Below are positions 4,005 through 8,263 of a stretch of DNA of 22,497 nucleotides, piece after piece; positions within the stretch are counted from its first letter, which is position 1, and each line of letters starts with the position of its first letter. Both the position numbers and the translations under genes were made by a program. The notes under the pieces are model-generated. The model was given only the letters and a program-made list of their open reading frames with translations. It had not been told where the DNA came from and made no database searches. The DNA is taken from IMG/VR virus record IMGVR_UViG_3300023237_001101, positions 1 through 22,497 of that record; one strand, 5' to 3'. The stretch comes from a virus.

Positions 4005-6221
4005 TTAGACTGAGTTGAGATTATTCCAGATCGCGAGTTGGCTCTCGCTGACCTCGATCAGGCGTTCGAAAAATCGCGAGCTGTTCGCATCGCCGTTGGC
4101 GCGGCCCTCGAGGAGCTGGCGTTTGTTTGAGCGGTCTCGTTTGACGGATTCGCGGATGCCCCCGGAGAATCCGATGTCGGGGATTCCTCGTAGGTCCTGG
4201 CGAGGATTCGCCTGCATTTTGAAAATCCCACGCGCCACAACTTGACGCTCGCTCTCCATCCCGTTGCGCTTCGCGGCGAGGATCTGCTCCTCGAGGCGCG
4301 CCTTAGCGCGGAGGAGGGCGAGGGCCTTCTCTTCCGAGATGCCGGTCTCGCGGGCGATGCGCTCCGCTTCTTTTCGAAGATCGAATTCCTCTCGGAGTTG
4401 ATCGGCGAGACCGGAGCGGCCCTGGGCCTCGAGCTGGAGGGCCTTGAGTTCGATGGCGAGGTCTCGCTTCCCGCGCGCTTGCTGCTCCTCGTTCCTGGCG
4501 GTCTCCTGAGCGGCATCGGCTTGCTCGGCACGGGCCTGGGCGATCTGCTCTTCTAGATCGGCGCGACTCTCGGTGGTGGCTCGGAGTTTCTGGGCAATGA
4601 TCAAGAGTTCCTTGGAGGTCTGGAGGTTGCCACTCGCGAAGGCCTTCCGGGCGAGGTCGAAGGCTCCCTTGGGTCCGAGGCCGGCACCGGCCTCGAGACC
4701 AGCATCGCGGGCGAGCGTTTCGGCGGCATTGAGGAGGCTGACCACGGTGTCCTGGAGTCTCCCGAGCTGATCTTCCGGGGCCAGGAAATCAATCTCGACC
4801 TTGAAGACATCCTTGGAGAGAGCGAGGACTTCGGTCGCAAGGTCGGACTTTTGCTTAGCGAGCGCAGCCATGGCCTTGCTCTCACGCTCGACTGCGGCTG
4901 CGCTGGCGTCCGAAAGCGACTTCCTCCGGAACTCTGAATTCGCGAGCGCGAGTTGCTCCTGCTCCCTCTCGTCTGCGGCGGCGCGGTCCTGGTCGATGAG
5001 TTTTTTCGAGAGTGCTATTTGCTCTTTTGTCGCATCGATGCGCTCGGCCGGGTTGAACTCGTTTTTCGCCAATTGGTCACCGATCAGATTGCCCAGCTGA
5101 AACCCTGCATAAGCAGTGCCGACCATGGCCGCCGCGGCGCCGCCACTGGTCTTTGAAAGCCCCCCCGCGCCAGAATTTTTGACCTTGGCGGCCGTATTCA
5201 CGTTGAGCGCTGCGGTCTGTGCGGTGATCGCGGCGGAGGACGTGACCAGGCTCCCGGCGGTGGCCGCGAGCCCTTTGAGAAATACCCCGAAATTGATGGC
5301 CTTGAGCGTGATCACATAGGCTCCATACAGCTTTACGGTGGTTCCCAGGACCTCGCGGTTTTCGACGAGGAAATTCGTCAGTGCCACCATGGCATTTGCG
5401 ACGGCTTCGAGCTCCTCTTCCATGCCCGCGAGGACCTCGATGCCCTCAGTCGCGCCTTTGATGAAGGCCATCTGGAGGGGGATGAGTTTCTGCCCGAGGA
5501 CGGACTGGGCGTTCTCGAACTGGGCCGCGAGAATCCGCTGCTGGTTTGCAACGCCCTCGGCAGTTTTCGCGAAATCGCCCTGGGCATCGGAGGTTTTACG
5601 ATAGATGAGATCGAGAGCAACGAGCTGTTTCGTTTGAGCCTCCAGCGCGCCTTTGCCATCGTAGAGGCCCATGGTGCGGGCGCGATCCTTGAGGATGGTT
5701 TCGTTGATGATGACGTTGTATTTCTTGAGCATCTCAAACTCTCCGGTCAGGGCCCCGGCGATGGCATCTCGCGCATCGTCCTGGCTCGAGTTGAAGAAGG
5801 AGGCGAGATCTGAGGTGAGGCCGACGAGCTCTTGCGAGATCTTCTCGGCCTCGGTGGCGGTTTTTCCTCCGATTTCCTTGAGCGCACCCCCGAAACGAGA
5901 GGCGTAATCGAGCGCGGCGGTCTGAGATAATCCGAGGGCCTCATCCTGACGAGCGGCCCAGGCGGAGATGGAATTATCATCGCCAAAGATGGCGGCCGTC
6001 TTGGAGAGGGTCTCGCTGAGATCTGAGGCGGACCCGACGAGATCCTTGAAGACCTCCTTACCGGAGCGGAGGGCGAGGAGCCCGACCCCGAGCTTGATGA
6101 CGTTTCGCAGGGAGTCGCTGGTATCCTTACCGAATGACTTGACGGTCTTGCGCGCTTTCCCGAATTCCGAGCGGAGCGGACCGGAATCGGCGCGGAGGTT
6201 GATCTTGATATTCTCGGCCAT
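4005..6221 (-). CDS. Phage tail tape measure protein
   Basis: The 738-residue product sets tail length and helps DNA entry. The N-terminal 240 residues show the usual tape-measure pattern: SGPLRSEFGKARKTVKSFG, a short hydrophobic helix around 45-55, then ASDLSETLSKTAAIFG, DYASRFGGALKEIGG and AGALTGEFEMLKKYNVIIN. About 310-375 is Ala/Gly-rich with apolar helices (LYGAYVITLKAINFGVFLKGL), likely membrane-active. Residues 390-660 are long charged coiled coil rich in Ala, Glu, Arg and Gln. Length and position after the tail-chaperone pair fit. In lambda-like systems the chaperone G/GT wraps this protein before tube assembly. It predicts a siphovirus-type tail of modest length. Confidence 0.93.
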   Translation of the reverse strand: MAENIKINLRADSGPLRSEFGKARKTVKSFGKDTSDSLRNVIKLGVGLLALRSGKEVFKDLVGSASDLSETLSKTAAIFGDDNSISAWAARQDEALGLSQTAALDYASRFGGALKEIGGKTATEAEKISQELVGLTSDLASFFNSSQDDARDAIAGALTGEFEMLKKYNVIINETILKDRARTMGLYDGKGALEAQTKQLVALDLIYRKTSDAQGDFAKTAEGVANQQRILAAQFENAQSVLGQKLIPLQMAFIKGATEGIEVLAGMEEELEAVANAMVALTNFLVENREVLGTTVKLYGAYVITLKAINFGVFLKGLAATAGSLVTSSAAITAQTAALNVNTAAKVKNSGAGGLSKTSGGAAAAMVGTAYAGFQLGNLIGDQLAKNEFNPAERIDATKEQIALSKKLIDQDRAAADEREQEQLALANSEFRRKSLSDASAAAVERESKAMAALAKQKSDLATEVLALSKDVFKVEIDFLAPEDQLGRLQDTVVSLLNAAETLARDAGLEAGAGLGPKGAFDLARKAFASGNLQTSKELLIIAQKLRATTESRADLEEQIAQARAEQADAAQETARNEEQQARGKRDLAIELKALQLEAQGRSGLADQLREEFDLRKEAERIARETGISEEKALALLRAKARLEEQILAAKRNGMESERQVVARGIFKMQANPRQDLRGIPDIGFSGGIRESVKRDRSNKRQLLEGRANGDANSSRFFERLIEVSESQLAIWNNLNSV

Positions 6222-6238: not shown

Positions 6239-6466
6239 TCATTTGCAGACCAGTCCCCTGGCCCATTCTTTGATCTTGGTCATGACTCCGCGGCGGGCCG
6301 AGCCCTCCTCTGGCCAGCGCATGCGATCGCCATCGAGCATGCGGGCCATGTGATAGTAAGCGAGGCCGCGACTGAGGGGTAATTCCCACCGGATAAAATG
6401 TTCGGTCCAGCCGGATCGGGAGGAGATCACGATGACGTATTGCGCCTCCCAAACCGGCATGGCTAG
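6239..6466 (-). CDS. T extension of tail assembly chaperone, made by -1 frameshift
   Basis: This reading frame is entered by a -1 slip at GGGAAAC immediately before the stop of the upstream chaperone gene. After slipping, translation continues CTA GCC ATG and on for 73 more residues (MPVWEAQYVIVIS to KEWARGLVCK), giving a fusion of about 247 residues. An internal ATG at 6460, three bases past the upstream stop, could also allow separate initiation, so both routes are possible. In lambda the gpGT fusion recruits tube subunits to the tape measure through its T part. The tape measure gene begins 17 bases after this frame ends, the expected layout. The T part itself has no recognised family. Confidence 0.8.
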   Translation of the reverse strand, partial: LAMPVWEAQYVIVISSRSGWTEHFIRWELPLSRGLAYYHMARMLDGDRMRWPEEGSARRGVMTKIKEWARGLVCK

Positions 6467-6981
6467 TTTCCCGAGTCATCGCCATGTTCCGGGCTGTCGG
6501 ATGGAGCGGACTCCGCGTGGTTTTTATGAGCGAGATTGTAGATACGCATGGCGACGGTATTGGCCTCATCATGCCTCCCGAGCGGGACATGATCATCGAC
6601 CCAGGCATCGACCGCACACTGGAAGCGCAAGGGATCGCCCCGGAGCGAGCGGATCACTGATTCCTCGGCATGGCAGAGGAAGAGGATGCGGAAGGCATCC
6701 GGGAGGAAGGTATAGCTGCTGAGGATGCACTCCGCGAGGTGCCGCGATCCCAGGGCGTGGCGGACCTCGATCCAATGGCCCTCCCGGGCGGAGGTCCAGG
6801 GGCGGAGCGGCTTGCCATTCCACGACGGAGGGCCGGCATTAAAGGCGATCTGTCGGGCCGCTTGCTCGCTGGGATCTGGACCGGTGTCCTCGAGAAGCTG
6901 AGGAGCGGCGGTCGCTTGCCCGGTCGCGCGTTCGGGATTGTAAATATCGGCGTGGGCATCAGGCCCGGGGGAATCGTTCAT
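6463..6981 (-). CDS. Tail assembly chaperone (gpG-like)
   Basis: The product is 172 residues from the ATG at 6981 (MNDSPGPDAHADIY). The frame is open further upstream, but that part overlaps the 252-aa gene heavily, so the later start is preferred. Residues 1-50 are disordered and acidic. The remainder is helical (GHWIEVRHALGSRHLAECILSS, AFRILFLCHAEESVIRSL, FQCAVDAWVDDHV) with an acidic tail EHGDDSGN that ends in the slippery codons. Family is assigned by position before the tape measure and by the frameshift architecture, not by clear sequence similarity. In lambda most ribosomes stop here and a few percent make the longer fusion; the ratio here is unknown. Confidence 0.75.
   Translation of the reverse strand: MNDSPGPDAHADIYNPERATGQATAAPQLLEDTGPDPSEQAARQIAFNAGPPSWNGKPLRPWTSAREGHWIEVRHALGSRHLAECILSSYTFLPDAFRILFLCHAEESVIRSLRGDPLRFQCAVDAWVDDHVPLGRHDEANTVAMRIYNLAHKNHAESAPSDSPEHGDDSGN
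6466..6472 (-). other. Programmed -1 ribosomal frameshift site (GGGAAAC)
   Basis: On the minus strand the last sense codons of the chaperone are TCG GGA AAC followed by TAG. The heptamer G GGA AAC has the exact X XXY YYZ phase of a -1 slippery site, and the -1 frame is open for 75 codons. Lambda G-GT uses the near-identical GGGAAAG. Position in the tail-chaperone gene just before the tape measure makes this a confident call. Confidence 0.85.
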
Positions 6982-7016: not shown

Positions 7017-7775
7017 CTACATCCCAAAGTGTTTTTCGGCGCGCTCCCACGCGGCATCGCTGGCATCGGCGCGGACCAGGGCGGACTTGGGAGATCGCGG
7101 TTTTTGAAGGATGACCATCTGGACCTGCTCGCGCATGGCCTTGACGATGGCGGCGCGATTGTAGAGCGCGAGCATGCAATAGAGTAGCGGATGCTCGGGA
7201 TCGCTCGCGGCGAGGAGGCCTTGGCGGTAATTAATCAAGAGCGCGTGCACATTCAGGATGGACAGGGGCCCGGTGGCTCCCGGCTTGGAATAGTTCTCGA
7301 AATAGAACACGCGCTGGCCCTGGGGACCGGAGATTGAGAGGAGCGGGATCCCGATCGTGATGAGGCTGACGGCCATCTCCATCTCGGTGATTTTCGTAAG
7401 GACGGCCTTCCCAGCGAGACCGGGGAGACCTTGGTCGGAGTCCTGCAGGAGGCACTGCCCGCCTTTCATTTTCACAAGGCTCACGAAGCGGCCTTTATTG
7501 GCGAGATCGAGAAGACGTTCGCGATTTCGGAGCGCGACGAGGCACCAGAGAAGCGGGTGACCAGGGGTCTGCGCCTCGAGCTGTTTCTCGCGATACATCC
7601 GGCGGAGACGGGAGGTGAGCATGGCTCCCTCCTCGGTCTTAGCGCAGAGGTAAAAGGTGTAAAATTCGCGGCCTGTCTTACTATCGATCGCTTTATCGAT
7701 GCGGATGGGAATGCCGAGAGTGGCGAGCGCGGCCGCTTCTTTGGTATCGCGCGTGGCGCTGAAGATGGGTTGCAT
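7017..7775 (-). CDS. Internally duplicated tail-region protein
   Basis: This 252-residue protein contains two copies of a module of about 90 residues. In the first (about 14-104) the motifs run ALATLGIPI, EFYTFYL, PGHPLLWCLVALRNRERLLDL, VSLVKMK. In the second (about 134-225) they are AVSLITIGIPL, RVFYFE, PEHPLLYCMLALYNRAAIVKAM, VQMVILQK. The order and spacing match, so it arose by tandem duplication and fusion. It sits between the tail-tube candidate and the chaperone pair, a place where some phages carry an additional tail chaperone or adaptor. No signal peptide is present. A weak terminator precedes it. The module family was not recognised and the assembly role is inference. Confidence 0.7.
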   Translation of the reverse strand: MQPIFSATRDTKEAAALATLGIPIRIDKAIDSKTGREFYTFYLCAKTEEGAMLTSRLRRMYREKQLEAQTPGHPLLWCLVALRNRERLLDLANKGRFVSLVKMKGGQCLLQDSDQGLPGLAGKAVLTKITEMEMAVSLITIGIPLLSISGPQGQRVFYFENYSKPGATGPLSILNVHALLINYRQGLLAASDPEHPLLYCMLALYNRAAIVKAMREQVQMVILQKPRSPKSALVRADASDAAWERAEKHFGM

Positions 7776-7849: not shown

Positions 7850-8263
7850 TTAGGCGACGAAGGGATATTGGACGATTTTAGCGGTGGCCTTTCCGAGCTC
7901 TTCGTTCGAGAGCTGGCGGCTGGGATCCTCCAGAACCAAGATGCCATCGGCGGGATCGAATCCATAGATCGCGCCGGTGTAGTTCGCGATGGCTCCAACT
8001 GAGGTTCCCGGATGGGCATGAGCGATGGAGTCCTCTGGATCATCGGCCCCGAGCGCGGCAAGGTAGCCATCGAAATCGAAGGTGAGAAGCGGATCCTGGA
8101 AGCGGAGACCGGCGGTCGATCCGTTCGTCCCCTTGAAGACTTTTTTCTCCCGGGTCGCAGAAACCGTCAGGCTGTTTACGAGGATTCCGATTTCTACCAC
8201 AATATCACCATCGGTTCCGGTGGCGATGGCTCCGTAGTCCATTTGAGAGGTATATGCAGGCAT
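7850..8263 (-). CDS. Tail tube (major tail) protein candidate
   Basis: The 137-residue, mostly beta protein starts MPAYTSQMDYGAIATGTDG, then IVVEIGILVNSLTVSATREKKVFKG and LLTFDFDGYLAAL. Alternating strands with a central long loop fit the small tube-fold proteins of siphophages. It is followed by a terminator, as expected for a highly expressed structural gene, and lies between the terminator/completion genes and the chaperone-tape measure block. A TTTGACA box lies 13 bases before the start and no strong Shine-Dalgarno is seen. The call rests mainly on position, size and fold; a spike-anchoring protein is an alternative. Confidence 0.6.
   Translation of the reverse strand: MPAYTSQMDYGAIATGTDGDIVVEIGILVNSLTVSATREKKVFKGTNGSTAGLRFQDPLLTFDFDGYLAALGADDPEDSIAHAHPGTSVGAIANYTGAIYGFDPADGILVLEDPSRQLSNEELGKATAKIVQYPFVA

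Follow-up and report, generated by a model that had tools for sequence, protein, structure and literature searches.

A putative −1 frameshift signal adjoining a stop codon in the tail genes of viruses linked to Verrucomicrobiota

Layout of the tail gene region and the proposed frameshift

The window analyzed here, the whole 22.5 kb stretch of a virus record, carries its tail genes on the minus strand, to which all coordinates given below for the window refer. It raises the question of how a 75-codon frame is translated that lies in the −1 frame at the end of a 172-aa ORF and directly before the tape measure gene, the spot that is the classical place of the G and T genes (PMC5009743). The genes are arranged in the order terminase (gpA type), portal, capsid, a 137-aa protein, a 252-aa protein, the 172-aa protein (G), the T extension, and the tape measure protein. 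The tape measure gene (4005..6221, 738 aa) was recognized by a tblastn match to phage proteins annotated as tape measure (E 2e-30, 40% over residues 28-250), and the 137-aa protein (7850..8263), which is conserved in L006 and L008, is the probable major tail protein according to gene order. The 252-aa protein (7017-7775) between the latter and G is likewise conserved in L006 and L008 and gave no family match; it contains an apparent internal duplication, whereby both halves share the pattern TLGIP...HPLL(W/Y)C(L/M)(V/L)AL(R/Y)NR.

The G-like ORF (6463..6981) reads MNDSPG...HGDDSGN and, as the original prediction had stated, ends with TCG GGA AAC TAG when read on the minus strand. The junction sequence is GATGACTCGGGAAACTAGCCATGCCGG, in which the heptamer GGGAAAC (6466..6472) is in the correct phase for slippage, X_XXY_YYZ, i.e., G_GGA_AAC. 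The −1 frame after the heptamer continues with CTA GCC ATG CCG GTT TGG and stays open for 75 codons (6239..6466; LAMPVWEAQYV...ARGLVCK) up to a TGA at 6241-6239, which leaves 17 bases to the tape measure ATG at 6221; these predicted features were thus likewise borne out.

Taken from sequence comparison, the junction very probably constitutes a signal for programmed −1 ribosomal frameshifting, whereby a single start codon gives rise to two products, as is the case for lambda G and T. We infer slippage itself, its rate, and the functions of the proteins as follows. Most ribosomes would read ...GGA AAC TAG and stop, yielding the short chaperone G. A minority would be slowed in translocation at G_GGA_AAC by an RNA stem-loop 7 nt downstream, whereupon the Gly and Asn tRNAs would slip jointly one base back onto GGG and AAA and reading would resume with CTA GCC ATG CCG, yielding a G-T fusion. 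By analogy to lambda, the fusion would bind the tape measure protein through its G part and the tail tube protein through its T part. The stop beside the heptamer would let unshifted ribosomes leave at once and fix the end of G.

Neither G nor T yielded anything above cut-off in Pfam, PHROGs, and NCBIfam, and a PDB sequence search gave nothing usable. The original prediction had noticed no obvious resemblance of the two proteins to lambda G or T, and this holds at the profile level, as hhalign gave no significant match of G to the lambda G family (P 0.42) or of T to the lambda T family (P 0.028 over 14 columns). An AF2 model of the window's G (pLDDT 83.5) had the HK97 tail assembly chaperone 2ob9 as its top VIA row (Z 3.0, rmsd 3.5, 65 aligned) and the GT protein of phage N15 at rank 2 in BFVD (E 0.41), both below significance, and a Foldseek search against the PDB returned no significant row. 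For a second family model, several annotated tail assembly chaperones occurred among weak BFVD rows and none in the VIA list. Since there is no library or profile match, the chaperone identity rests on gene order, on the frameshift itself, and on the weak fold matches, which together make a role of the G/T family as tail assembly chaperone likely. As a side observation, lambda T (L143, 1216-1650) starts with ELSFALKLAREMG, which in place and letters resembles the family sequence A-S-F-V-F-T-L-A-R-E-T-G; the corresponding hhalign comparison is the non-significant one given above.

In a few loci (L056, 1120-1770; L155, about 1000-1648; both contigs of one Verrucomicrobiaceae MAG), G and T form a single ORF without a heptamer, and both likewise read as one frame without a heptamer in a third genome (L161). 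These loci show that G and T can work as one protein and that some lineages have abandoned the frameshift.

Conservation of the heptamer and of the downstream stem-loop

A search with G alone recovered two contigs, one identical in sequence and one 72% identical, and more distant relatives were reached by tape measure and T alignments. In this way 66 distinct relatives were gathered by T-protein similarity and profiles and not by the heptamer motif, so that the heptamer provides an independent test. A first scan of GTDB, for which L013 headed the T alignment, gave no relative, and a second scan with an alignment of the CCCAAAC group found eight loci, all from Verrucomicrobiota, including the isolates Chthoniobacter flavus Ellin428, Verrucomicrobium sp. 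BvORR106, and Haloferula sp. BvORR071. T was present in 12 of 388 sampled Verrucomicrobiota genomes, and all genome matches with named hosts belong to this phylum; the relatives thus point to Verrucomicrobiota as the presumable host of the window's virus. The cultured phage and plasmid collections contained no relatives of the G or T parts.

An in-phase XXXAAA(C/G) heptamer is present at the G-T junction in 66 of 66 distinct relatives (CCCAAAC 30, GGGAAAC 25, AAAAAAC 8, GGGAAAG 2, AAAAAAG 1), and in 63 of them the final base is C. Clustering of G at 50% identity gives 32 clusters, all of which have the heptamer, and L056, the one further locus outside the 66 that lacks it, is among the single-frame loci described above. 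The XXX triplet alternates between GGG, CCC, and AAA, whereby the first encoded residue becomes Gly, Pro, or Lys. Since the triplet is kept although the residue changes, it is the slipperiness that is conserved, beyond the need of the protein. Further Verrucomicrobiota matches carry GGGAAAG, AAAAAAG, or AAAAAAC directly before TAG. The Chthoniobacter flavus Ellin428 prophage (L059) has CCCAAAC, and the Haloferula sp. BvORR071 prophage (L052, L062) has AAAAAAG, a heptamer of the dnaX type, with the stop ten codons downstream. A dnaX-like Shine-Dalgarno stimulator upstream of the heptamer was considered and is not proposed here: AGGA, GGAG, or GAGG occurs 5-17 nt upstream in 28 of 66 relatives versus 7.8 in controls, the motif is absent in the window, and the signal is confounded by the acidic C-terminus with its GAG, GAA, and GAC codons.

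A conserved stem-loop (6407..6462), which was absent from the original prediction, follows the heptamer. In the window, folding gives a hairpin of -32 kcal/mol (z -4.13), with the main stem formed by 6458-6445 and 6423-6410. The stem starts 7 nt past the heptamer, within the 5-9 nt expected of a stem-loop-stimulated −1 frameshift, and 7 nt is the usual distance when the heptamer occupies the P and A sites. Across the family, the 60 nt downstream of the heptamer have a mean folding z of -2.75, with 57 of 66 below -1.5, compared to a mean of -0.02 for a control taken 250 nt upstream in these genes. In 45 relatives an equivalent 11-bp stem is paired in 92.7% of cells, compared to 34-48% in slid controls. 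Two-sided changes in this stem number 51, versus 14.7 +/- 3.2 in shuffles, none of 500 of which reaches 51; the shuffle control is subject to the relatedness of the sequences, which the slid control retains. Within the window's own group of five sequences, three pairs show a two-sided compensatory change. In both subfamilies, the 5' arm begins 7 nt past the heptamer, whereas the 3' arm lies at columns 40-50 in one and 50-63 in the other; thus, the stem was retained while its pairing partner moved. The covariation set left out the subgroup L025 and L027-L032, for which the predicted structure is weak, so that the stem-loop is not universal in the family.

The adjoining stop codon and alternative readings

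The zero-frame stop TAG of the window (6463..6465) adjoins the heptamer, and such a stop adjoins it in 43 of the 66 relatives, lies one codon on in 16, and follows after 6-13 codons in seven, whereby TAA, TAG, and TGA are all used across the family. For SEA-PHAGES tail chaperone genes, a mean distance of 26 nt is given (PMC10885494). The synonymous codon choice shows that the closeness of the stop is under selection. Among 26 Leu sites (50% clusters), 18 have CTA as the first −1 codon, the last two bases of which begin the zero-frame TAA or TAG, versus 9% of CTN codons elsewhere (p about 1e-13, which, as for all codon-choice p-values here, assumes independent lineages and is best taken as a rank). 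Where the stop does not adjoin, an aliphatic residue at the second codon is encoded by NTA in 4 of 4 cases (15 of 16 without clustering), which places the stop one codon on. As its proximity is selected, the stop must do something.

The suggestion in the original prediction that pausing at the stop codon may help frameshifting is possible and is not the favored expectation, since it goes against published E. coli data, where placing a stop immediately behind the HIV heptamer decreased frameshifting and additional RF2 abolished it (Horsfield 1995, as related in PMC4373837). More simply, the stop could define where G ends and let ribosomes that have not shifted leave before they open the hairpin.

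It could also be that most slippage follows translocation, at a stage when AAC occupies the P site and the stop codon the A site (E/P-site slippage), whereby the rate would be set by competition with the release factor. The selected proximity of the stop would fit this course, as would the finding that bacterial ribosomes read stop codons placed behind the HIV heptamer before slippage occurs (PMC4373837). However, the use of all three stop codons means that no one release factor is targeted, and 7 of the 66 relatives manage without a close stop. The 7-nt spacer also stands against it, being the usual distance for a heptamer in the P and A sites. Together with the decreased frameshifting that stops at this place caused in E. 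coli, these points make E/P-site slippage as the main route rather unlikely, and slippage in the P and A sites remains the preferred reading.

A further question is why the motif ends with C instead of lambda's G. In E. coli, heptamers ending with AAG are the shiftiest because its sole tRNA-Lys pairs weakly with AAG, and Z = C is far less shifty than Z = G, which speaks against the frameshift reading, whereas AAG is expected to pair tightly in bacteria that possess a further lysine tRNA (PMC5009743). Chthoniobacter flavus Ellin428 (L167, L171), unlike E. coli, possesses separate genes for tRNA-Lys(UUU) and tRNA-Lys(CUU), and also a tRNA-Asn(GUU). Judging from this one host genome, a dedicated tRNA-Lys(CUU) may lie behind the final C. 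Taking both parts together, we tentatively propose, as a possibility that we do not hold to be the more probable one, that the stop in contact with the slip site takes an active part in the signal, so that the G:GT ratio would result from competition between slippage and termination before the hairpin, and that the C-ending heptamers would be an adaptation to tRNA-Lys(CUU) hosts, in which the lambda and dnaX type of slip on AAG would be weak.

T might instead be a separate gene with an incidental heptamer, started from the −1 frame ATG (6458..6460) through termination-reinitiation two bases past the stop of G. This ATG is present in the window and its three nearest relatives (L003, L008, L012), which share TAGC(C/A)ATG, and gene finders would call T from it. 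However, its position is occupied by GAC in L024, which belongs to the nearest group, no ATG is found in L013, L014, and L015, and only 6 of the 66 distinct members have any ATG within the first five extension codons. Protein comparison showed that the T-like protein is conserved in relatives with and without the ATG, and the codons before the ATG position are conserved as protein as well (Leu1, Pro4). The ATG moreover adjoins the stem and lies partly within it, its G (6458) being the first base of the main stem. Thus, the ATG is probably not a needed start, and reinitiation is very improbable. The original prediction had proposed an alignment of homologues, naming loss of the heptamer together with retention of the ATG as evidence against a frameshift; the alignment gave the opposite, with the heptamer conserved in 66 of 66 distinct relatives and the ATG not conserved, which favors the frameshift.

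That the heptamer occurs by chance, with G and T independent of each other or T unexpressed, is hardly credible: GGGAAAC is indeed not rare in the window (4 found, 3.6 expected), but in-phase XXXAAAZ occurs elsewhere in the G genes of the family at 6.9e-4 per codon, so that 0.05 of 66 junction heptamers would be expected versus 66 observed, and this conservation, beside the covarying stem, already refutes such a reading. What exceeds chance in GGGAAAC is its location and conservation and not its frequency. Stop-codon readthrough was rejected as the zero frame past TAG closes within a dozen codons and T lies in the −1 frame, and so was transcriptional slippage, as GGGAAAC and CCCAAAC contain no run longer than three.

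Significance and comparison with known systems

The general frameshift trick is already known, and so is a GGGAAAC directly before a stop, in Burkholderia phage KL1 (PMC3483164); no earlier report of the family, of its covarying stem-loop, or of a selected stop proximity was found in the open-access literature searched. A protein family without a library match hereby gains a likely role, both in uncultivated phages and in prophages carried by cultured Verrucomicrobiota. The family also offers a set of natural signals that differ independently in slip letters, stop distance, and stem sequence. The long-standing question whether slippage precedes or follows entry of the next codon into the A site thereby becomes testable on natural bacterial sites. 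In addition, it provides a testable link between the lysine tRNA set of the host and the choice of heptamer.

In KL1, the GGGAAAC of gp18/gp19 directly before the zero-frame stop TGA was reported in 2012 (PMC3483164; JF939047) and was confirmed here in the sequence (L054). The heptamer adjoins the stop as in the family, and a downstream stem-loop has been suggested for KL1 as well (PMC3483164). However, the T parts are not recognizably related, as tblastn of the family T parts in the phage collection gave no KL1 match, and KL1 has an extra gene between gp19 and the tape measure gene, unlike the window. Tail chaperone heptamers with Z = C, GGGAAAC or AAAAAAC, are also found at the g-t sites of HCTV-1/-2, Colossus, and phiCbK (PMC5009743), which have different hosts. 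In eukaryotic viruses, a stop directly after the heptamer occurs as in the family, but in a polyprotein context (PMC4373837).

Lambda gpG/gpGT (G_GGA_AAG) shares with the family the place before the tape measure gene, the in-phase X_XXY_YYZ heptamer where the short protein ends, and a −1 extension that runs to the next gene. The term "lambda-type" in the original prediction is accordingly apt for place and phase and loose otherwise, as the family has Z = C instead of lambda's G, a covarying stem-loop, and proteins without detectable similarity. In the window, the stop adjoins the heptamer, whereas in lambda (L143) five codons come after it.
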